Assembly (NCBI RefSeq): GCF_004116465.1
Contig: NZ_PDJV01000020.1
Span: forward strand, 1-48,446
Origin: Arcobacter sp. F2176
GTDB taxonomy: Bacteria; Campylobacterota; Campylobacteria; Campylobacterales; Arcobacteraceae
Length of the DNA: 48,446 nt
Direction: 5' to 3'
Shown: in pieces, positions 1,216 to 36,075 of the stretch
How positions within the stretch are numbered: position 1 is the stretch's first letter
Layout of the letters: each line of letters opens with the position of its first letter
The notes under the pieces: model-generated
Seen by the model: the letters and a program-made list of their open reading frames with translations, nothing else
What the model was told of the DNA's origin: nothing
Databases searched by the model: none
Position numbers and translations under genes: made by a program

Positions 1216-2489
1216 AATACTTCATGTTCCTCTAACAATTTACCTAACTCTGTTAAGCCTCTCTCAACTACTCCAACATACTTATGTCTATCATTAGTAG
1301 ATGAGAAAGATAAAGCACCACAAATAATTCGTTCAATACCTTTATTTTGATATTTTACATATGCAGATGCTACAGCGTTGACGTCGTTAGGTCCTTGTGT
1401 TTTACTAAATCCATTATTATTTAAATCTCTATATTTATATATAGTAAAATCTGCTATTCCTGCTTTTAAAAAAGCAGCTCTTCTTACCATACAAGGCACA
1501 CAGCGTCCACAATGAGTACGTCCATGTGTTAAATATTTACCACAGCTTGTTGTACTACATACTAACGATTGAACTAAATCTTGATTTTTACATTCTTGTA
1601 GCATTTCACCTTTTGTTTTGAATTGATAAGGAGTTACTATCTTTGCATTGATTCCTAAGTTATTCCAAATGTCTTGAATTAATCCTAAAAATACTGGATG
1701 TGTTGTTTTAGTACTAAGACTTCCTAGTCTTCCTGAGTTTAATGCAATATTAAGACTAATAAAACCATTCTCAGGTACATATATATCTACTGTACTTGTT
1801 TTCCATTTACTTAATGTAGTTGCTGCTAAAAGAGCATATCCCAAAAATATTATTGAACGACCTCTTGTAGATGATTCATTTCTGCCACTTAAACTTATAG
1901 GATTCTTCCATCGAAAGTGTTGTTGAGATGGTGCTAATTGACGTGTAAATGCTTTTTGTTTTTCAACATCTCCTTTTGCTTCTTGAGAAACAAAACAAGG
2001 CTTAAGTCCATTCGTAATTAAATCAATTGCACCAATTAAACTATCCATTCCACCTGAGAGTAAAGATACGCAATCTACATCAATTTCTATGGGTATAATT
2101 GATGTAGGAGCTTGTACCCCATTATTAACAAATTCAAATTTCCATATATCTCCAGTTAAAAATCTAAAAGCTTTTTCTAGTGATTTATATTGTGATCTCC
2201 ACGGTTCTGGATTACATAAATAGACTTTTAGTTCTATTTGTCTTGTCCAACCATCTTCACTTTTTTCTCTTTCACAACTTAAATCTGAAGCAGCTACGGA
2301 TAAAGCAATTGTCACAAAATCCCAAACTAAATTTGATGGTGCTATGTTATCTCTTTTTAAAGCTCGTAACCAATCATTAGAAATAAAACTTATATTAGGA
2401 CGGCCACTGTTTGAATATAAAGAAAAATATTTCGTATTACTATCTAATATAGTTGGTAGTTCATTTACTGGTGCACAAATTACTTTCAT
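1212..2489 (-). CDS. qatC: QatC, QueC-like PP-loop ATPase of the Qat anti-phage system
   Basis: A 425-residue protein, nearly twice the size of housekeeping QueC (about 230). After an N-terminal extension of about 135 residues specific to QatC-type proteins, the PP-loop SGGMDS appears at residues 145-150. A cysteine cluster near residues 311-333 (C311, C316, C327, C330, C333, with the CGRCVPC stretch) matches the zinc site of QueC. QueC makes the nitrile of preQ0, a 7-deazaguanine, using ATP and ammonia, so QatC is expected to do similar chemistry on a deazapurine. The start shares one base with the qatB stop (TAATG) and the end overlaps qatD by four bases. No queD, queE or tRNA-modification gene is nearby, so tRNA queuosine synthesis is unlikely to be its job. 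Confidence in the Qat assignment is high. Confidence 0.9.
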   Translation of the reverse strand: MKVICAPVNELPTILDSNTKYFSLYSNSGRPNISFISNDWLRALKRDNIAPSNLVWDFVTIALSVAASDLSCEREKSEDGWTRQIELKVYLCNPEPWRSQYKSLEKAFRFLTGDIWKFEFVNNGVQAPTSIIPIEIDVDCVSLLSGGMDSLIGAIDLITNGLKPCFVSQEAKGDVEKQKAFTRQLAPSQQHFRWKNPISLSGRNESSTRGRSIIFLGYALLAATTLSKWKTSTVDIYVPENGFISLNIALNSGRLGSLSTKTTHPVFLGLIQDIWNNLGINAKIVTPYQFKTKGEMLQECKNQDLVQSLVCSTTSCGKYLTHGRTHCGRCVPCMVRRAAFLKAGIADFTIYKYRDLNNNGFSKTQGPNDVNAVASAYVKYQNKGIERIICGALSFSSTNDRHKYVGVVERGLTELGKLLEEHEVL

Positions 2490-3331
2490 TATAGTTCTCC
2501 TTCAAAAACGATAAAAGTGCTTTCTAAGGCTAGTTGAGTTACAGCATTTAATTTACTAATATCAGGATGTTTATCAGAAGATTTATATTGTTGTAACTGA
2601 GCTGAAATTTCAGACTTAAGATAATCCCTCATTTCATCTACTCTTTGAACCATCTCCTTTGGGCTAAGTGTTCTTTCCAATAATTGACCAATATCCAACT
2701 GAAGTCTATTAGAAGCTTCATATGCTAGAAAACCTTCTATTAAATCCCAGCTCTCATCATCTCCTAAATTCAATAATTCTATATCTGGATTTTGTTCTAA
2801 CAAATCTGACATAGCATTAGCCATTGAATCTTTAATGGATTCTTCATCTATTATTCCACCTTCACTTGTAACTCTATCAATAATTGCATCTATTACTTCA
2901 TTAGCACTTGGAGACTTAGACATAAGATTTTGTGCCCAGTCTTTAATATCAGGTAATGTATTGTCTTTAACATCTCTTAAAAATGATACCAATCCAGAAA
3001 CAGAACTTGTAGAAGCTCTCATCCTTTTAGCTACATTAGATGCACCACCCATTCCTTTTTTAGAATAGTGTCCTACTGCTTTTTTAAATGAGTTTTGACT
3101 TCCACTTCTAGCAAATTCACCAAGATTTTTTCTTGCTGTCCCAAACCTTGCTATTGGGGCTAATACTACCGGTTCTTGAATACTAGGTTGTTCTGTAGTT
3201 ATTCCATTCTCTTGTTCAGAACTAGAATCAGAATCTATTGGTACAGTTATATCACTATTAATATCATCAAGCCAAGGTGGATCCATTGATATACCTGATA
3301 CTGGTCCTGTACTAGAAGTTGATGTACCCAT
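2489..3331 (-). CDS. qatB: QatB, partner protein of the Qat anti-phage system
   Basis: A 280-residue protein opening MGTSTSSTGP and soon PPWLDD, the typical QatB beginning. Residues 1-60 are low-complexity, rich in Ser, Thr, Pro, Glu and Gln and likely disordered. Residues 70-120 are basic and glycine-rich (around KKGMGGASN), and the remainder is helical. No enzymatic motif is visible. After methionine removal the first residue would be glycine, which matters because QatC-type QueC homologues have been proposed to attach a deazaguanine to a partner N-terminus; I recall this from recent work and cannot verify it here. The ATG shares one base with the qatA stop and the TAA shares one with the qatC ATG, so the three are tightly coupled. 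Confidence 0.87.
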   Translation of the reverse strand: MGTSTSSTGPVSGISMDPPWLDDINSDITVPIDSDSSSEQENGITTEQPSIQEPVVLAPIARFGTARKNLGEFARSGSQNSFKKAVGHYSKKGMGGASNVAKRMRASTSSVSGLVSFLRDVKDNTLPDIKDWAQNLMSKSPSANEVIDAIIDRVTSEGGIIDEESIKDSMANAMSDLLEQNPDIELLNLGDDESWDLIEGFLAYEASNRLQLDIGQLLERTLSPKEMVQRVDEMRDYLKSEISAQLQQYKSSDKHPDISKLNAVTQLALESTFIVFEGEL

Positions 3332-15082: not shown

Positions 15083-15116
15083 AATAATATTTAAGGATTT
15101 ATCCTTAAATATTATT
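15083..15116. terminator. Bidirectional terminator between DUF2325 gene and fur
   Basis: A perfect 16-bp inverted repeat (AATAATATTTAAGGAT and its complement) with a two-base TT centre, 34 bases in all. It includes the fur stop codon at 15112-15114. The strength comes from length, not GC. The A- and T-rich flanks suit termination from both sides. Confidence 0.7.
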
Positions 15117-18455: not shown

Positions 18456-19193
18456 TTATACCTTATATTTATTCCAAATAGTCTCTTCTTCTAAAGAGGC
18501 TCTATTTTCTAGTACTTCAAAAGGGGTATATGCTTCTTTGTAACCCATAGAAAAATGATCTTTTATCCAATAACCTAAATAGATATAAGGGATTTTTAAT
18601 TGTTTTGCAACTTTTATTTGAGCTAATATTGAAAATTTGCCAATAGATAATTTTTCATAATCATGGTCATAAAAACAATAAATAGAAGATATAGATTTAT
18701 CTAAAATATCAGTTAAAGCTACACCAATTAATTTATCATCTCTCATATACAAAAACTCTTTTGTATATGAAGTTTTACCATCAATATAAGATCTACTATA
18801 TTCTATTGGTTCTATTGGTGCATAAGGCCATGATTTTTTATCATTCATAAACTTATGATACTTATCATATAAATTTAGATGATCTACAGAAATTGAAGGA
18901 GGTTGAATATAAACTTTTGTATCTTTATTTTTTGCCATTACCCTTTTTTCTGATTTAGAGAATTTATAATTTGCAACATCAATTCTGATACTTATACACT
19001 TAGTACAATTCTTGCACTCTGGAACAAAGTGCATTCTACCAAATCTTCTCCATCCATGCTCAAGCATGTTTTGGTAATCTTCTGGCGTGCAGTTTTTTAA
19101 GTATCTATATCTTATATCAGATATTTCATTGTCAAAATAAGAACAATCTTTATTATTCTCTACAAACTCTAATTCATCATCTATCAATTGCAT
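18456..19193 (-). CDS. bpt: Bpt, aspartate/glutamate leucyltransferase
   Basis: A 245-residue aminoacyl-tRNA-protein transferase of the ATE/Bpt family. The N-terminal landmark GWRRFGRMHFVPEC and the cysteine pair in CKNCTKC, then the C-terminal GNAT-like half with YLGYWI and MGYKEAYTPFEVL, are characteristic. Bacterial Bpt moves leucine from Leu-tRNA to proteins with N-terminal Asp or Glu, making them targets for ClpS/ClpAP, which are encoded about 7 kb away. The length fits (about 240). It lies two bases after trpA on the same strand, so the pair is co-transcribed although functionally unrelated. Confidence 0.92.
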   Translation of the reverse strand: MQLIDDELEFVENNKDCSYFDNEISDIRYRYLKNCTPEDYQNMLEHGWRRFGRMHFVPECKNCTKCISIRIDVANYKFSKSEKRVMAKNKDTKVYIQPPSISVDHLNLYDKYHKFMNDKKSWPYAPIEPIEYSRSYIDGKTSYTKEFLYMRDDKLIGVALTDILDKSISSIYCFYDHDYEKLSIGKFSILAQIKVAKQLKIPYIYLGYWIKDHFSMGYKEAYTPFEVLENRASLEEETIWNKYKV

Positions 19194-25056: not shown

Positions 25057-25290
25057 AGTAGCCTTAAATCTTTATTATTACACTATATTATACAAAAAAA
25101 TTGATAGCGAATTTTGAAAAAGAGTTATGAATTTTAAAAATTACTTTTAGTATTATTTAATTGATTTAGATTATTTCTAGATAAAAATGCCTAGAAATGG
25201 CGATTATAAGAATTTTTATTTTGATTAAATTTTTATTAAGAAAGTATTTATACTAATTTTAAGAAATATAAAAATATATTTTTATATTTC
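25057..25290. other. Intergenic region with a stem-loop
   Basis: About 230 AT-rich bases between the J-domain gene start and the FTR/rhodanese gene end, so it holds the promoter for the J-domain/LRR unit. An 8-bp perfect inverted repeat ATTTCTAG / CTAGAAAT with a 10-base loop lies at 25173-25198; no U-tract follows, so it is not a classical terminator. No open frame or RNA gene is recognised. Confidence 0.4.
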
Positions 25291-25292
25291 TT
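25261..25292. terminator. 32-base perfect palindrome at the end of the FTR/rhodanese gene
   Basis: The 32 bases read identically on both strands (arm AAGAAATATAAAAATA). They run into the TAA of the FTR/rhodanese gene at 25291-25293, so the site most likely ends the clpS-clpA-cytochrome-FTR transcript. The stem is entirely A-T but for one G-C pair near each end. Confidence 0.6.
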
Positions 25293-26031
25293 ATTCACCT
25301 GAAAGCAGTTCACCTTGATAAGTCATAATTCCATAGTCTAAATTACATACGCTTTTAAATCCAGCACTTAACATAATATTTTGACAATAAGCACTTCTAC
25401 TTCCACTATGACAATAAACTACGACAGGAATATCTTTTTTATCTTCAAGGACTTCTATTGATTGATAAAAAGATGTTGTTGGAACTAAAAAGTCAGTTCC
25501 TTTTATTCTGTGACCTACCCACTCCATCCACTCTCTTACATCAACTAAATTAAAATTAATAAAACCTAATTCTCTAGCTTCCAATAAAGCTTCAACTTCT
25601 ATTGCATTTATTTGAGATTTATTTAAAATTTCTACACACTCTTCTTTTGTAAAACCTTTAGAATGAACAACTTCTTCTTTTTCTTTTTTACTATTATTTA
25701 AAGAATCAACATACTCTTTTGTGCAAAAAATACCACAGTGACAATGACCTTGTGAAGGAATCTCTTCTTTAAGGGCTGGGGTACAGGGACAAAGTCTATT
25801 ATCAGCTTTATCTTTTTCTTCTTGAGTTTCTCCTATTACCATAAAACATGGACAATATCTCTTATCATATATAAGTTTATTTCTAGTCAAACCCATTTGA
25901 ATAGATTCATTTACATCATCTTCTGGATTATAAACAAATCCATACTCTTCGCAAACTTTATCTGTAAACTGTTTTGTTAATTCAAATGTTGTTTGAAACT
26001 CATCACTATTTATATCAATCTTTTTAATCAT
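25291..26031 (-). CDS. Ferredoxin-thioredoxin reductase catalytic domain fused to rhodanese
   Basis: A 246-residue fusion. Residues 15-110 carry the FTR catalytic pattern: CPC at 60-62, CPC at 81-83 and CHC at 97-99, plus C103. These would hold a 4Fe-4S cluster and an active disulfide that passes electrons from ferredoxin to a thiol partner. Residues 125-246 form a rhodanese domain with catalytic C207 in YCHSGSRSA and the DVREWMEW motif, able to carry a persulfide. The fusion suggests ferredoxin-driven reduction or release of rhodanese-bound sulfur. It begins at the stop of the cytochrome gene (TAATG) as the last gene of the clpS-clpA unit. Which thioredoxin or sulfur acceptor is used is unknown. 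Confidence 0.85.
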   Translation of the reverse strand: MIKKIDINSDEFQTTFELTKQFTDKVCEEYGFVYNPEDDVNESIQMGLTRNKLIYDKRYCPCFMVIGETQEEKDKADNRLCPCTPALKEEIPSQGHCHCGIFCTKEYVDSLNNSKKEKEEVVHSKGFTKEECVEILNKSQINAIEVEALLEARELGFINFNLVDVREWMEWVGHRIKGTDFLVPTTSFYQSIEVLEDKKDIPVVVYCHSGSRSAYCQNIMLSAGFKSVCNLDYGIMTYQGELLSGE

Positions 26032-29890: not shown

Positions 29891-29921
29891 AAAGAGGAAT
29901 CTTATATAGATTCTTCTTTTT
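29891..29921 (+). terminator. Intrinsic terminator of bioD
   Basis: A 12-bp stem with one G-U pair (AAAGAGGAATCT against AGATTCTTCTTT) and a five-base loop TATAT, followed by T residues. It lies just after the bioD stop and covers the last codon positions of the convergent ask gene; on the other strand the A-rich flank gives a weaker terminator for ask. Confidence 0.75.
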
Positions 29922-31281
29922 GTAATAAACTTTCATAAAGTGTTTCAAGTGCATTATTTGCAATATTTTGTGCAACCCCAATATGAAGCGAAATTTTAGA
30001 TGGACTCATATCAAGCATATCAAAGCTAATATTTTTATCTTTTAAAGCATTAATAGCATCAACAATTGCAAAAGTATTTTGTTTTAATCCAATTCCAACT
30101 AATGTAATTACACATAAATTATAAGAAACAATAATATTGTCTGTTTTTAGTCTTTTTTCTATCTCTCTTCTTAAATTATTTATCTTACCTTTTAAATCTT
30201 CTTGTTCTACTAAAATAGAGATATCATCTCTATCTGTTGGATAATGGTAAGTATTAATTCCAAACTCACTAAATATTTTTAATAACTCAGCAGTAAACCC
30301 TATCTCATCGGCCAACATATCTTTTTGAAGATAAATAGATGCCATATTATCAAGCTTTGCAATTCCAACTAAATCTTCCATAGGAACTCTTTCACTCAAT
30401 ATCATAGTTCCACAATGTTCTTTATTATTTGTATTTCTAATATTAATTGGAATTTTACTTTTTTTACAATTTAGCATTGCATTAAAGTGAAATACATTAA
30501 ACCCTTTTGAACTAAGTAATCTTAACTCTTTAAATGTAAGTCTTGGTATTACCTTCGACCCACTAATAACTCTGGGATCTACTTCATAAACACCATTTGT
30601 ATCTGTCCAGTTTTCATACTTATTGGCATCAAGAGCATAAGCTAGTTCTCCACCAGTAAGATCACTTCCACCCCTACTCATAACTGCTATTTCATTATTT
30701 TCTGTTACACCATAAAATCCAGGAACTAAATATTTTATATCTTTAGTCGTATCAAATTTTTCTTCTATATTTTTATAAGTTACTTTTTGTACTTTTCCAT
30801 CTCTAAAATCCTCACTTAAAATAAATCCAAACTCTTCTGGTAACATAAGTTTTATATTTAAGCCCTCATTTGAAAAATATCTTTGTATTATTTTTGCATT
30901 ATAATGTTCACCTCGTGACAAGAAAAAAGCCTCTTTTCTTTCGCCTTTTAACAATGAATTTGATAAATCTTTGTCCAAAGATTTTATTAAATCATCACCT
31001 TTAACATTTAAATCACTACATAATCTTCTATATTTATCTATAATCGCTTCATAACTTTGTTTTTTGCTTATACTTATAAAATTTTCTTCAAAATGTTTAC
31101 CTGAAGTTGCTATATTTAATAAATGATCAGTTATTTTTTCATCAAAATTATCATCTCTACCTGGTGCAGAAACTACAATTATTTTTCTACCATCATCATC
31201 TTTTACAATATCTAAGACTTTTTTTATTTGGGAGGCATTTTTTACAGAACTACCTCCAAATTTACATACTTTTATACTCAT
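29902..31281 (-). CDS. ask: Aspartate kinase of the ectoine operon (Ask_Ect)
   Basis: A 459-residue monofunctional aspartokinase that phosphorylates aspartate to feed aspartate semialdehyde, the ectoine precursor. The opening KVCKFGGSSVKNA and the LSRGEHYNAK, VMSRGGSDLTGG and WTDTNGVYEVDPR segments mark the kinase domain; two ACT domains follow from about residue 305. Its position as the last gene of ectABCD-ask marks it as the ectoine-specific isozyme, which is usually less sensitive to lysine/threonine feedback. It starts 11 bases after ectD. A housekeeping aspartokinase would be elsewhere in the genome. Confidence 0.93.
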   Translation of the reverse strand: MSIKVCKFGGSSVKNASQIKKVLDIVKDDDGRKIIVVSAPGRDDNFDEKITDHLLNIATSGKHFEENFISISKKQSYEAIIDKYRRLCSDLNVKGDDLIKSLDKDLSNSLLKGERKEAFFLSRGEHYNAKIIQRYFSNEGLNIKLMLPEEFGFILSEDFRDGKVQKVTYKNIEEKFDTTKDIKYLVPGFYGVTENNEIAVMSRGGSDLTGGELAYALDANKYENWTDTNGVYEVDPRVISGSKVIPRLTFKELRLLSSKGFNVFHFNAMLNCKKSKIPINIRNTNNKEHCGTMILSERVPMEDLVGIAKLDNMASIYLQKDMLADEIGFTAELLKIFSEFGINTYHYPTDRDDISILVEQEDLKGKINNLRREIEKRLKTDNIIVSYNLCVITLVGIGLKQNTFAIVDAINALKDKNISFDMLDMSPSKISLHIGVAQNIANNALETLYESLLQKEESI

Positions 31282-31292
31282 TTTTTACCTTA

Positions 31293-32180
31293 TTAGTTAC
31301 TTTTCATTGGTTCATAATCATCTAATGCCAAAAAGGAAGCCCTATTACTTTTAGCACCAAAAGGTTTTGTTGGAATATTTTCTACTGAATTAAAAACAAA
31401 AAATGCATTAGTTCTACTAAATGGTGATATATTATCACAGCTTCCATGCATAATATTTCCATCATGGATTACTAGTGTTCCAGCTTTTCCATATGCACCT
31501 ACTATATTACTATCTTTGACTAATTGTTCAATTGCTTTTAAGCTAGGTACACCATATTCTTGCTTTTTCAAAGATTTTTTATAGTTATCCTCTGGTGTTT
31601 TTCCTTTACAAGAAACATATTTTTTGTGACTATTTGGAATTAAGTATAAGGGTCCATTAAATTCTGTATTATCATTTAACATAACCCAAGCACTTAAACA
31701 CCTACAATTTGGCAAACCATCTTCTGTGTGCCAAGTTTCAAAATCACTATGCCATGGAAAAGATTTTCCTTGATAAGCTGGTTTTATATTAATCCTACTA
31801 TGATGAATATAAACATCACTTCCCAAAAGTTGCTTAACTTTATTTAGTATTCGAGGATCTTTTGAAAGCTTCTCAAAAAGAGTACTAAAAAGATGTTGAT
31901 TAAAAATCGTTCTTAATTTATTGCTCGTTGGTTCACAAATAAACTCTTCATTTTTAATCAAATCATCATTATCAGCCATCAAGTCTATCTCTTGGATCAT
32001 TTGCTGTATTTCATCTTCTTTAAAAATATTTGGAAATGTGATAAATCCATTCTTTTCATACTCATCTAACTCAATATTATTTAAAGAGTATTCACCTTGT
32101 TGTTTTTTACTATATACTGTTTTATCAACTCTTGGTATAATCTTTTCTTCATTTAGTCTTGATGGATATAAATCCTGCAT
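31293..32180 (-). CDS. ectD: EctD, ectoine 5-hydroxylase
   Basis: A 295-residue Fe(II)/2-oxoglutarate dioxygenase that converts ectoine to 5-hydroxyectoine, the better protectant against heat and drying. The iron ligands are visible as H144 and D146 (FPWHSDFETWH) and H245 (GNIMHGSCDN), at the positions known for EctD. The consensus stretch from FPWHSDFETWHTEDGLP onward is a hallmark of the true hydroxylase within the PhyH superfamily. Length fits (about 300). It sits between ectC and ask in one operon. The enzyme needs oxygen, in keeping with a microaerobic or aerobic host. Confidence 0.96.
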   Translation of the reverse strand: MQDLYPSRLNEEKIIPRVDKTVYSKKQQGEYSLNNIELDEYEKNGFITFPNIFKEDEIQQMIQEIDLMADNDDLIKNEEFICEPTSNKLRTIFNQHLFSTLFEKLSKDPRILNKVKQLLGSDVYIHHSRINIKPAYQGKSFPWHSDFETWHTEDGLPNCRCLSAWVMLNDNTEFNGPLYLIPNSHKKYVSCKGKTPEDNYKKSLKKQEYGVPSLKAIEQLVKDSNIVGAYGKAGTLVIHDGNIMHGSCDNISPFSRTNAFFVFNSVENIPTKPFGAKSNRASFLALDDYEPMKSN

Positions 32181-32197: not shown

Positions 32198-32593
32198 TTA
32201 ATCTTCTAATGGATAAACTCCATTTTCATCGTGGTTTTCTGTTCCTTTAATAGGAGGATTAAATACACAAATCAGTCTCATATCTTCTGTTCCACCATAT
32301 AAATTATGGTCATCATGTTCATTTAGTGCATACATAACACCATCATAAATCTCATGAACTTTTCCAGTTTTCAAATCTTCAATTTTACCATTTCCTGCTA
32401 CACAATAAACTGCTTCAAGATGGTTTTGATAATGAATATGCGTTTTCGTATTTGCTTTTATGATAGTTTCATGGAATGAGAATCCCATATTATCACCTTT
32501 TAAAAGCATTCTTCTACTAACCCATTGTCCTTCTTCTGCGTGAACTTCTTTATCTGTGCCTATAATATCTTTATTTATATCTAATACAATCAT
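32198..32593 (-). CDS. ectC: EctC, ectoine synthase
   Basis: A 131-residue cupin that closes N-gamma-acetyl-diaminobutyrate into ectoine with loss of water. Landmarks are GFSFHETII, THIHYQNHLEAVYC with the metal-binding residues, GNGKIEDL and LNEHDDHNLYGG. The length is exactly that of the family (about 130). It follows ectB by four bases and precedes ectD by 17. Confidence 0.97.
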   Translation of the reverse strand: MIVLDINKDIIGTDKEVHAEEGQWVSRRMLLKGDNMGFSFHETIIKANTKTHIHYQNHLEAVYCVAGNGKIEDLKTGKVHEIYDGVMYALNEHDDHNLYGGTEDMRLICVFNPPIKGTENHDENGVYPLED

Positions 32594-32597
32594 CTTC

Positions 32598-33878
32598 TTA
32601 AAATTCCTCTGTTAATTTTTCTTTTTTATCTGCAACTAGTTTTGAAATAGCTATTTCAAGTCTATTTAAACCTTCTACTAGTGTCTCTTCATCAATAATT
32701 AATGGTGGTAAGAATTTTACAACTTGATCTTCACTACCACAAGTTTCTATAATTAGTTTTTCTGCAAATGCATATTTTGAAATCTCACCAGCAACTGAAT
32801 TATCACCTTTGATTTCAAATCCATAAGCCAAACCTCTACCTCTAATTACAATATCAAAGGTATCTTTGTATTTATCAGCTATTTTTTTTAAACTCTCTTT
32901 TAATAGTTTTTCTTTATATTTAACTGCATTTGATAAATCATCATTTTGCCAATAATGTGAAATTGCAACTGTTGCAGCGACAAAGGCTAAGTTATTTCCT
33001 CTAAAGGTACCTGTGTGTTCACCTGGTTTCCATTGGTCTAAATCTGGTTTTAATAATACAATTGCCATTGGTAATCCACCACCAATTGATTTTGATACAG
33101 TTACAATGTCAGGATTAATTCCTGCAAATTCAAATGAGAAAAATTCACCAGTTCTTCCATTACCAACTTGAATATCATCAATGATTAATAAAATATCATA
33201 TTCTCTACAAATAGATTCAAGTTCTTGTAACCACTCTTTGCTAGCTACATTAATTCCACCTTCACCTTGAATAGTCTCAACAATTACAGCGGCTGGAATA
33301 TCAAGTCCACTACTACTATCTTCTAAAAATTTTCTAAAGATAGTCATAGTATTCATATCACCAAAATAGCCATCAAATGGCATAAATGATACATTTGATC
33401 TACTAATATAACTTTCATCTCTGTAATCATTGTTTCCAGTTACTGAAGATGAACCTTGAGTAAGACCATGAAAACCATTAGTGAAAGAAACAACATTACT
33501 TCTTCCTTTTACAAGTCTTGCAAGCTTAAGTGCAGTTTCTACTGCATTTGTTCCTGTTGGTCCTGTAAATTGAATTTTGTAATCTAAGTTTCTAGGTACT
33601 AATATTGTGTCATTAAATGTTTGTAAAAAATCTTTTTTTGCACTTGTTGCCATATCAAGCCCATGAATAACACCATCTTTTTGTATATATTCAATCAATG
33701 CTTTACTGATATGTTCATTATTATGTCCATAATTTAAAGTTCCAGCTCCTGCAAAAAAGTCAATGAATTCTTCACCTTGTTCATTAGTTAAAACAGTTCC
33801 TTTTGAAGTTTCAAATATTGTTGGAAAACTCCTAATATATCCTCTTACTTCTGATTCTAAATTTTCGAATATTCTCAT
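32598..33878 (-). CDS. ectB: EctB, diaminobutyrate 2-oxoglutarate aminotransferase
   Basis: A 426-residue class III aminotransferase converting aspartate semialdehyde and glutamate to 2,4-diaminobutyrate, the first ectoine step. It has the family opening FENLESEVRGYIRSFP, DFFAGAGTLNYGHN, TGTNAVETALKLAR and the PLP lysine in VTVSKSIGGGLPM. Length and motifs fit EctB rather than the related DABA transferases of siderophore pathways, as does the operon. The ATG shares one base with the ectA stop. Confidence 0.97.
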   Translation of the reverse strand: MRIFENLESEVRGYIRSFPTIFETSKGTVLTNEQGEEFIDFFAGAGTLNYGHNNEHISKALIEYIQKDGVIHGLDMATSAKKDFLQTFNDTILVPRNLDYKIQFTGPTGTNAVETALKLARLVKGRSNVVSFTNGFHGLTQGSSSVTGNNDYRDESYISRSNVSFMPFDGYFGDMNTMTIFRKFLEDSSSGLDIPAAVIVETIQGEGGINVASKEWLQELESICREYDILLIIDDIQVGNGRTGEFFSFEFAGINPDIVTVSKSIGGGLPMAIVLLKPDLDQWKPGEHTGTFRGNNLAFVAATVAISHYWQNDDLSNAVKYKEKLLKESLKKIADKYKDTFDIVIRGRGLAYGFEIKGDNSVAGEISKYAFAEKLIIETCGSEDQVVKFLPPLIIDEETLVEGLNRLEIAISKLVADKKEKLTEEF

Positions 33879-34378
33879 TATTTTTCTTCCTTTATTTTAA
33901 ATGGCCCTATTTCGTATAGAGTCTCATCTTCATGACTGTTTTTAAAATCATTTTTTTCAAAAAATGTACTACTAGTCATTTTTGTATTTAGCCCTTTGGC
34001 AACCTTTTCAAAAACCTTTATTGATGATATATTGCTAGGTGACACTGTTGTATAGATTTTTTCAACATCTAAAAAATCTCTTTTAATTATATTCATGATT
34101 AGTCGACCTGCTATATCATTTCCTCTATATTTTCCATCAACTGCAACTTGCCATATGAACAAACTGTTATTTTCATCTGGTTTTAAATATCCAGATACAA
34201 AACCTATAACTTTATCTTCATGTAATGCAACTGCACAAGTTGATGAAAAATGTGTTGATTGAAGTAAATAAAGGTACTCAGAATTTAAATCTAAAACCTT
34301 ACTCTCTTTTACCAAATCATAAATTTGGATTGCATCAGATTTTTCTGGTTTTCTTATCATAATATTATATGATGACAT
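33878..34378 (-). CDS. ectA: EctA, diaminobutyrate acetyltransferase
   Basis: A 166-residue GNAT enzyme that acetylates diaminobutyrate at the gamma nitrogen. The opening IMIRKPEKSDAIQIYDLV, then LDLNSEYLYLLQSTHFS and the acetyl-CoA loop region VAVDGKYRGNDIAGRLI, match EctA. It heads the ectABCD-ask operon, with AAAGGT before the ATG. A strong promoter with an overlapping palindrome lies 50-80 bases upstream, and a MerR-type gene is divergent. Confidence 0.96.
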   Translation of the reverse strand: MSSYNIMIRKPEKSDAIQIYDLVKESKVLDLNSEYLYLLQSTHFSSTCAVALHEDKVIGFVSGYLKPDENNSLFIWQVAVDGKYRGNDIAGRLIMNIIKRDFLDVEKIYTTVSPSNISSIKVFEKVAKGLNTKMTSSTFFEKNDFKNSHEDETLYEIGPFKIKEEK

Positions 34379-34424
34379 AAATTTTACCTTTTTTTGTATT
34401 TTTTTTCATACAATATGTTTTAAA

Positions 34425-34458
34425 TTAACATAATAAATGTTAATTTTTTACATATCAA
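34425..34458 (-). promoter_or_regulatory. ectA promoter with overlapping palindromic operator
   Basis: On the minus strand, TTGATA (34453-34458), a 17-base spacer and TATTAT (34430-34435) make a near-consensus sigma-70 promoter about 50 bases before ectA. A perfect 7-5-7 inverted repeat TTAACAT-AATAA-ATGTTAA (34425-34443) covers the whole -10 and the start region. A protein bound here would block RNA polymerase. The divergent MerR-type regulator is the natural candidate, though classic MerR sites lie in a long spacer, which is not the case here. Confidence 0.7.
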
Positions 34459-34534
34459 GTGTTTATTATTACATAACTTTCTTAATTTAATCTTAGTTTC
34501 TATGTAATTTAAACATTATTTATAGTAAAAAATG

Positions 34535-34540
34535 TATAAT
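34535..34540 (+). promoter_or_regulatory. -10 element of the MerR-type gene
   Basis: A consensus TATAAT 17 bases before the GTG start, giving a leader of only about 11 bases that still holds the ribosome site AAGGAA. No good -35 is seen at the standard distance. Confidence 0.5.
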
Positions 34541-34557
34541 TGTGAAAAAGGAAATTA

Positions 34558-34896
34558 GTGGCTTTAATAGATAATGACAAGGAAATATTACCTTTAAGTA
34601 GTATTGCAGAACTTTTAGGAACAAAAGTAAGAACTTTAAAAATGTACGAAGACAAAGGACTTTTACCTGAAAAGAAAGAGATTAAAAAACTATATTCAAT
34701 CAATGATACAAAAATGGTCTCTTTTGTTCACTACTTAGCAAGTGTAAAAAAAATAAATGCAAATGGTATAAAATATATTACTGAAATGGTTGAAAATAAT
34801 ATGGATGAGAATAATAAAGCTCTGTTTTTAAATATAGTTGAAGAGAAAATGGAGAAATTATCTACAGATGATATAAAAGATATAGAACTTTTATAA
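34558..34896 (+). CDS. MerR-type regulator divergent from the ectoine operon
   Basis: A 112-residue protein starting at GTG (34558), preceded by AAGGAA. Residues 10-80 form a MerR-type winged helix: LSSIAELLGTKVRTLKMYEDKGLL is the signature helix-turn-helix and the YEDKGL(L/I) turn; LYSINDTKMV starts the second HTH. A short helical tail follows that could dimerise. There is no cysteine effector site, so it is not a metal sensor; it looks closer to HspR-like or minimal MerR regulators. Its divergence from ectA and the operator-like palindrome suggest it controls ectoine synthesis in place of the usual MarR-type EctR; this is inference. The end overlaps the convergent MFS gene by six bases. Confidence 0.85.
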   Translation: MALIDNDKEILPLSSIAELLGTKVRTLKMYEDKGLLPEKKEIKKLYSINDTKMVSFVHYLASVKKINANGIKYITEMVENNMDENNKALFLNIVEEKMEKLSTDDIKDIELL

Positions 34897-36075
34897 AAGA
34901 ACTTTTACAACTTTTTTATAATAAAAAGCGACAAGAATAAAAGCAAAACCTAAAATAATAGTAATAAAACTAAGAGGAATAATATCTGCTAAAATACCAA
35001 TAAAAAATGTGGTAAGTACATTTGATAGCATAAATATCATGTCATTATATGATATTACTCGTCCCAAATATTTGTGCTCAACTCTTTCTTGTATAAAGGC
35101 ATAAGTCATTGACCAAATAGTTGTTGTCGTAAAGCCAGTTAAAAAAACCATGATTAATGCCAAATAAAAATTAAATTGGAAAATCCCCCATAAAATTATA
35201 CCTAAGCCTTGAAAAATAAATAAAAGTGTTAATCTATCTTTATTTACCCAATTTGTAATAATAAATGGACCTACCATAAGCGCCATTGCTCTAATAGCAT
35301 TTGTTATACCTATTGATAAGGGTACTGCTATTACATACTTATACTCATTTTTAGCTAGTAATGTTACTAGTGTATCAAAAGAAGTTAATCCAACTGATGC
35401 ATGGAGCAACAATAAATGTAGAACATGTTTATTACTTTTTATATATAAAAAGCCACCTTTTATCATAGATAAAACTTTCTCTTTTGTATGTACAATTTCT
35501 ACTTTAAATTCAATATTAAAAAAAACCAATATCGCTATAATAAAAAATAAAGAATCTAAAATAATAGCTATCTTAACTCCAAAATAATTTACAACAAGCC
35601 CACTCATTGCCATACCAAAAGCATAAGTAAATGACCAAATAATAGAGTGGATTTCATTTGTCTTTTTTAAAACATCACCAGAGACTATTTTAGGTAACAG
35701 TGTCATTTCTGCAGAAAAAAACATAGAAGCACTACTCATTCTTATAAAAATAAGTATCAACAAAAGCCAAATATCATCTTTATCATTAATAACAAGAAGT
35801 AGTAAGGTCATGCATAATTCTGTACTTAAAAGTGTTAGCATTAGTGGTTTGATTCTGAATCTATCTATAATGGCACCAGATAAAGGCGCTATCACGATTG
35901 CTGGAATAAAGAACATAGCAGTAACAAGTGAAATTATAAAGGCACTAGAGCCAAAATTTACAAGCATAGTATAAATAGCAACATTTGAAAACCAAGCTCC
36001 AAAATAAGCTATTAATTGAAGAATTGAGAGCTTTCTTACAAGTGGATAATTAACTAAAAGTTCTTTATAGTTCAA
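34891..36075 (-). CDS. MFS transporter
   Basis: A 394-residue permease with about 12 hydrophobic helices. The loop 2-3 region PLSGAIIDRFRIKPLMLT carries the MFS motif A variant (G-x-x-x-DR), and the N-terminal half resembles the enterobactin-exporter/MFS_3 type drug and siderophore exporters. The substrate is unknown. It is the last gene of the minus-strand run behind a periplasmic adaptor-like protein, 11 bases downstream, and converges on the MerR-type gene. The adaptor plus permease could form an exporter; no outer-membrane channel gene is present. Confidence 0.85.
   Translation of the reverse strand: MNYKELLVNYPLVRKLSILQLIAYFGAWFSNVAIYTMLVNFGSSAFIISLVTAMFFIPAIVIAPLSGAIIDRFRIKPLMLTLLSTELCMTLLLLVINDKDDIWLLLILIFIRMSSASMFFSAEMTLLPKIVSGDVLKKTNEIHSIIWSFTYAFGMAMSGLVVNYFGVKIAIILDSLFFIIAILVFFNIEFKVEIVHTKEKVLSMIKGGFLYIKSNKHVLHLLLLHASVGLTSFDTLVTLLAKNEYKYVIAVPLSIGITNAIRAMALMVGPFIITNWVNKDRLTLLFIFQGLGIILWGIFQFNFYLALIMVFLTGFTTTTIWSMTYAFIQERVEHKYLGRVISYNDMIFMLSNVLTTFFIGILADIIPLSFITIILGFAFILVAFYYKKVVKVLL

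Follow-up and report, generated by a model that had tools for sequence, protein, structure and literature searches.

The question raised by this locus is how a cluster of ectoine genes is controlled, and what part is played by the small MerR-like gene that diverges from it. The window (the whole stretch of 48,446 nucleotides that was analysed) carries the following genes on the two sides of the intergenic region:

34558..34896, plus strand: MerR-like protein, 112 amino acids, GTG start (Pfam MerR_1, 29.2 bits, cutoff 21.6)
33878..34378, minus strand: ectA, diaminobutyrate acetyltransferase (TIGR02406, 173.5 bits, cutoff 120.6)
32598..33878, minus strand: ectB (TIGR02407, above cutoff)
32198..32593, minus strand: ectC, ectoine synthase (Pfam Ectoine_synth and NF009806, above cutoff)
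31293..32180, minus strand: ectD-like hydroxylase (Pfam PhyH above cutoff; ectoine_ThpD 317.7 bits, against a cutoff of 336.5)
29902..31281, minus strand: aspartate kinase, last gene of the cluster (TIGR00657, 232.6 bits, cutoff 208.7)

The first gene of the target operon is presumed to be ectA, and the aspartate kinase is Ask_Ect-like by position and would have that role. An earlier note had drawn attention to a palindrome in the intergenic region and had taken it for the operator of ectA. Direct inspection confirmed TTAACAT-AATAA-ATGTTAA at 34425-34443, and the full perfect palindrome proved longer than the 19 bases first described, reading AAATTAACAT-AATAA-ATGTTAATTT:

34422..34446, no strand: full palindrome, 10+5+10, made up of the inner half-site pair of the array described below and AT-rich flanks

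Judged by its arms, the palindrome is less striking than it had appeared. When the intergenic region was dinucleotide-shuffled 2000 times, arms of at least 7 bases (loop 3-8) arose in 48.6% of the shuffles, and arms of at least 10 bases in 3.5%; perfect inverted repeats with arms of at least 7 number 83 in the whole window (nested ones counted apart), compared with 66.3 on average in 40 shuffled versions. In an AT-rich region the palindrome alone is weak evidence, and its arm length is compatible with chance. A chance origin, which passes by arm length alone, was rejected by conservation in relatives: the palindrome stands above chance because it is conserved there as part of an array. Three perfect inverted repeats elsewhere in the window exceed it, and each is perhaps a terminator: 15083-15116 (arms 15, loop 4), 18743-18770 (arms 12, loop 4), and 25260-25293 (arms 15, loop 4).

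In relatives, the 6-bp half-sites ATGTAA and TTACAT were found to alternate at a pitch of 11 bp, often as five or six half-sites. The palindrome of the window consists of the third and fourth half-sites of a six-half-site array of this kind, so that what the earlier note had regarded as the whole operator is the inner pair of at least six half-sites:

34404..34464, minus strand: candidate operator array, six half-sites, 11-bp pitch, 5-bp spacers
34464-34459, minus strand: half-site 1, AAACAC
34453-34448, minus strand: half-site 2, ATGTAA
34442-34437, minus strand: half-site 3, TAACAT
34431-34426, minus strand: half-site 4, ATGTTA
34420-34415, minus strand: half-site 5, AAACAT
34409-34404, minus strand: half-site 6, ATGAAA

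A four-core pattern is matched without mismatch at 34415-34453. Among 42 upstream regions near merR (28 of ectA, 8 of BCCT, 3 of proV, and 3 of putA), the dyad ACAT-N5-ATGT was present in 30, compared with 0.46 in shuffles, and the dyad ATGT-N9-ACAT likewise in 30, compared with 0.44; the two are adjacent portions of a single array. In 47 ectA regions, the only offsets between TGTAA and TTACA with counts of at least 8 were -34 (23), -12 (49), +10 (43), and +32 (20), which differ by 22 bp; averaged across 121 offsets, the count was 1.2. Conservation in relatives, to which the earlier note had looked for confirmation of its palindrome, was borne out, the inner two half-sites matching at 5/6 positions or better in 36/40 and 39/40 aligned ectA regions (this count leaves aside the first half-site, h0, and its row h6 is based on 4 sequences only). 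As to the pair that one dimer would hold, the cores of ATGTAA-N5-TTACAT and TTACAT-N5-ATGTAA are equally frequent (30/42 each); by analogy, the orientation of the GlnR site favours ATGTAA-N5-TTACAT.

When 50 unique ectA upstream regions were each scored against 200 of their own shuffles, 45 scored above all of them. Weak scores were obtained for L064 (1/200 shuffles as high) and L065 (8/200), and no array was found before ectA in L069, L164, and L165. In L009/L046, L019, and L147, the best array and the start codon are separated by 65-140 bp. L009 (genome G020) has two arrays upstream of ectA: the strong one is about 140 bp away from the start codon, the weaker one about 20 bp, and promoter-like elements occupy the interval.

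Alignment of 21 of the 28 ectA regions (L019, L046, L064-L067, and L069 were left out) revealed a common order of elements: TTTAAG, about 21 bases, a -10 preceded by TG, the array, an AAGGA-like sequence, and the start codon. In the window, the first two correspond to:

34492..34497, minus strand: probable -35 of ectA, ACTAAG (most relatives have TTTAAG), separated by 21 nt from the -10 hexamer
34465..34473, minus strand: probable extended -10 of ectA, TG T AATAAT, a conserved column in relatives

Promoter columns were counted in 40 of the 50 ectA regions; seven of the ten left out do have an array. The -10 column (AATAAT in the window, 34470-34465) matches TATAAT at 5/6 positions or better in 31 of the 35 regions with a letter there, and the TTTAAG-like column (34497-34492) reaches at least 5/6 in 31/40. 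The window's own elements, ACTAAG and AATAAT, are weaker than consensus, the -35 matching TTTAAG at 4/6. According to PMC3824568, promoters of C. jejuni combine TATAAT with TTTAAGTnTT (or TTnAAGTnTT), their spacers measure 15-19 bp, and the -10 is preceded by a TG-containing element; the conserved ectA promoter fits this type, with a 10-base element and a 17-bp spacer. From the position of the -10, transcription of ectA would start near 34458. The array runs from the edge of the -10 across this predicted start into the leader.

The protein encoded opposite ectA has a MerR-superfamily winged helix-turn-helix (wHTH) domain, as indicated by Pfam MerR_1 and by an AlphaFold2 model (28 sequences, mean pLDDT 84.6) that aligns with MerR-type structures. 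Only MerR-type families matched at E <=0.001, with no MarR domain, and the protein falls below the equivalog cutoffs of HspR, CadR-PbrR, and MerR. It has no cysteine and no recognised sensor domain. The model is nearest to GlnR/TnrA (4r4e, Z 9.7; 4r24 and 4r22, Z 9.5), other MerR proteins following close behind at Z 8.7 and below, and the Foldseek E-values are modest (best 0.012). The C-terminus was modelled as one helix, residues 84-100, followed by low confidence to residue 112. Beyond the gene, an MFS transporter gene (34891-36075, minus strand) converges on merR, the two sharing 6 bases at the end of merR, and a very similar ORF follows merR in L002 and L038. Near merR in three distant genomes (L004, L068, L150) there are ORFs of about 280-290 amino acids with a signal-like N terminus.

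The reading that we favour, at a probability of about 0.65, is cooperative steric repression of compatible-solute genes by this short, GlnR/TnrA-like MerR protein acting through the array. Dimers of the divergently encoded protein (34558-34896) would bind the ATGTAA and TTACAT half-sites, and adjacent dimers, 22 bp or about two helical turns apart, would lie on the same face of the DNA and could thus bind cooperatively. With an array that extends from the -10 of a Campylobacter-type promoter over the predicted start and most of the leader, bound protein would block RNA polymerase; salt stress would presumably release it, turning ectoine synthesis on. In relatives, the same protein and array may also serve betaine and ectoine uptake genes. 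Repression is suggested because protein on sites that begin at the -10 and continue downstream would be expected to stand in the way of polymerase; in Paenibacillus, according to PMC6191146, GlnR bound downstream of a promoter represses by steric hindrance, and GlnR/TnrA promoters have ordinary spacing, unlike MerR targets. The earlier note had proposed steric block in place of the DNA distortion of MerR activators. Its mode of action agrees with the ordinary spacing and with sites running downstream from the -10, whereas its geometry was built on a promoter that is not conserved, and transcription probably begins elsewhere than that promoter would imply. That the signal is direct sensing of ionic strength is a guess. 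A wider picture, in which a sensorless 112-residue repressor forms an unbroken row on the alternating half-sites, beginning at the -10 and extending in the direction of the ribosome-binding site, and in which the steep cooperativity of this row lets its release report intracellular ionic strength directly with neither ligand nor kinase, governing an unrecognised osmotic-stress regulon of free-living Campylobacterota, is put forward tentatively and is rather doubtful as a whole.

The MerR superfamily includes activators, and the few loci with 65-140 bp between array and start codon indicate that other layouts exist; the array-bound protein might therefore recruit or help RNA polymerase under salt stress, in the manner of MerR or TnrA. 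We consider such activation unlikely, since the promoter spacing is ordinary and the alignment of ectA regions places the array from the -10 across the predicted start, a position in which bound protein would be expected to block.

The distribution of the array was compared with that of the MerR-like protein, which is present in 57/104 genomes of the window's family and in 37/397 genomes drawn from the phylum Campylobacterota (17/68 genera), two samples that overlap. A search for close relatives in one named collection yielded 34 loci, by title all from Campylobacterota except one labelled just 'bacterium'; this search and the phylum sample bear on Campylobacterota only. An array precedes ectA in 40/40 family genomes having both ectA and the MerR-like gene, and these 40 are all among the 45 ectA regions that score above all 200 shuffles. 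Genomes G003 (99% complete; L164) and G022 (95%; L165) have ectA with no merR match and no array before ectA; they belong to the same genus, and hence represent one evolutionary event. This genus (g2) has kept ectAB and has neither merR nor array. A third ectA genome with no merR match, G029 (84% complete), yet has an array (L166), and its merR may be absent from the assembly, given that the array is present and the genome 84% complete. At L069 (Helicobacteraceae, outside the family), merR and ectA share one locus that has no array.

Across whole genomes of the family, the four-core pattern with at most 1 mismatch was found in 37/57 genomes with merR, compared with 3/47 without (G011, G078, and G094, the site in G094 lying inside an ORF); 20/57 merR-bearing genomes have no array at this threshold, and the reversed pattern, as a control, occurred in 6/104 genomes. 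In the phylum sample, the corresponding numbers were 23/37 genomes with merR and 3/360 without (G011, G233, G276), with the reversed control in 10/397. Outside the window's family, the pattern was present in 5/12 phylum-sample genomes with merR, compared with 2/342 without. Three of these five matches (G272, G452, G453) adjoin merR; the other two (G417, G419) are located elsewhere and are perhaps fortuitous. Some pattern matches in merR genomes, e.g., G061, G121, and G125, are probably chance as well. The pattern places outside the inspected set are G061, G078, G079:C4, G011, G121, G125, and two in G116.

These counts bear on whether the array might belong to a different transcription factor, the MerR-like gene being merely adjacent. 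The array lies far from merR in many genomes, and binding by the MerR-like protein is a step that we infer; nevertheless, array presence tracks merR across the 397 genomes and in the ectA genomes of the family, and merR is repeatedly found beside array-carrying osmolyte genes, a pattern that a factor co-inherited with merR would also fit. We judge a different factor to be improbable.

The earlier note had placed its operator over the -10 of a promoter that is indeed present upstream of the EctA-equivalog gene, TTGATA (34458-34453, minus strand) being separated by 17 nt from TATTAT (34435-34430):

34430..34458, minus strand: first-named promoter TTGATA-17-TATTAT, probably not the true promoter

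A single 19-bp operator over this -10 has in its favour that the motif exists and that no other promoter-like site between the two genes scores better than this one (10 of 12). Promoter-like sites are as common in this region (32) as in its shuffles (mean 33.4, sd 5.1). The single operator is very improbable, however: TATTAT, named as the ectA -10, stands in a column with at least 5/6 matches to TATAAT in just 5/40 aligned regions, and TTGATA, named as the -35, in one with at least 5 matches in 1/40 (the window only), against the 31/35 and 31/40 of the conserved pair 35 bp upstream, and the palindrome belongs to the longer array. Least credible of all is that the repeats work as leader-RNA hairpins (TTACAT-N5-ATGTAA), which a transcript from the conserved promoter would contain and which could form base pairs, but which were rejected because on 31 arrays neither pairing (86.6%, compared with 85.9% in shuffles, 196/500 as high) nor the covariation score (0.063, compared with 0.048, 134/500 as high) rises above shuffles, and the letters themselves are conserved, both dyads are present, and the pitch is 11 bp.

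Repression through the array by the MerR-like protein has partial parallels among known regulators. In modelled structure, the nearest DNA-binding fold appears to be that of GlnR/TnrA (Bacillus, Paenibacillus), a separate branch of the MerR superfamily, and the half-site TGTAA/TTACA fits the TGTNA/TNACA given in PMC6191146; GlnR/TnrA also have a sensor at the C-terminus by which they contact glutamine synthetase. The array differs in its 5-bp spacer (7 bp in the GlnR/TnrA box), in being repeated, and in its targets, which are osmolyte rather than nitrogen genes; the box TGTNAN7TNACA, with at most 1 mismatch, has 30 matches in the window and 0 in 34379-34557. The dedicated regulator next to ectoine genes, in PMC5924519 and PMC13342039, is the MarR-type EctR/CosR, described there as having an unknown cue; EctR binds over a -10 and represses the ectoine genes, and its gene adjoins them, as the MerR-like gene does here. 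However, EctR/CosR belong to the MarR family, whereas the present protein matches MerR-type families only, and the EctR site is described as two 8-bp half-sites 2 bp apart, in contrast to the 11-bp array. The GntR-type BusR of Gram-positives represses betaine uptake and, according to PMC8517857, requires two motifs 22 bp apart on one DNA face, a spacing that the array shares; BusR, as described there, is a tetramer with a c-di-AMP-binding domain and is controlled by c-di-AMP, whereas the 112-residue protein has no such domain.

HspR, a short MerR-family heat-shock repressor, is the best NCBIfam match by E-value, and both proteins are short, but the score is 33.2 bits against an equivalog cutoff of 105, and its HAIR operator, an inverted repeat, had 0 matches in the window at <=3 mismatches. 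The classic activators MerR, CadR, and CueR, whose C-termini comprise a long coiled coil for dimerisation and a part that binds the effector, share the superfamily and a similar wHTH fold. Here, by contrast, the array lies outside any lengthened (19-20 bp) -35/-10 spacer, the MerR and CadR-PbrR cutoffs are unreached, and the protein lacks cysteine. BldC and CarH are MerR relatives with repeated sites (CarH reached Z 7.1 in the structure comparison); they bind direct repeats, whereas the half-sites of the array are inverted and alternating.

In a genome survey of Arcobacteraceae, ectoine synthesis was correlated with aquatic species, and the term MerR is absent from its text (PMC10336517). No report of such a MerR-like osmolyte regulator was found among the titles, abstract openings, and term counts listed for the open-access literature searched, subscription papers and preprints being outside its scope. 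The small MerR-like protein is a new candidate regulator of ectoine synthesis and of betaine and ectoine uptake in Campylobacterota, with a testable operator, and would give the MerR superfamily an operator in the form of a long periodic array rather than a single dyad. What sets it apart from its known relatives is that a member of the MerR superfamily, which probably represses, is combined with an operator in the form of a periodic array and with a regulon of osmolyte genes.

Genes near merR in relatives are ectABC, a BCCT transporter gene, ProV or ProX genes, or PutA; ProV, ProX, BCCT, PutP, and PutA were named from sequence, with ProV and BCCT profile-checked at L158 alone. The survey of array targets covered 383 kb in 50 loci, of which 34 had been retrieved by means of merR and 16 picked from pattern places. 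Thirty arrays scored at least 21, with 0 inside an ORF, and they precede ectA (18), proV (6), BCCT (4), ehuB (1), and a KamA-family gene (1), EhuB and KamA being assigned by profile and the other targets by sequence; the array of L147 lies between ectA and proV. In the merR-fetched loci alone there are 19 high-scoring arrays, every one before ectA, proV, or BCCT. Of the 16 hand-picked regions, 9 lie before ectA and three (L148, L155, L158) before other transport genes, that of L148 encoding a TRAP binding protein; the targets are less clear at L149, L150, L151, and L159 (inside an ORF). The array is found in related marine Campylobacterota before genes that make or import salt-stress protectants.

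The array travels with the osmolyte gene rather than with merR. Among loci in which merR and the gene upstream of it are not divergently oriented, an array was found upstream of merR in 0/40, and within 350 nt downstream in 20/38. Autoregulation of merR was accordingly set aside as unsupported, given the absence of an array before merR in all 40 codirectional loci, though the window array, which ends about 94 bp before the merR GTG, could also affect merR itself. In the window's own genome, the best match to a profile (R1) built from 31 of the 42 sites, those scoring at least 18, was the window array, at 14.3 bits and E 0.196 (150 of 10346 candidates scored). A gapped pattern fitted the window site without mismatch and, at 2 mismatches, a single additional place, C12:56476; counts were equal for the reversed control, and a second target in this genome is not claimed.

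Two of the array sites lie beside genes of amino acid metabolism or transport. At L150 (G035), an array (3037-3097 region) is located 28 bp before a KamA-family aminomutase gene (1843-3009, minus strand). In other organisms, beta-amino acids that KamA-type enzymes can produce act as osmolytes, and the gene in G035 may be a further array target. At L151 (G014), an AgcS-type amino acid carrier gene (1534-2976, minus strand) adjoins a weaker array, and G116 has a site nearly identical to this one.
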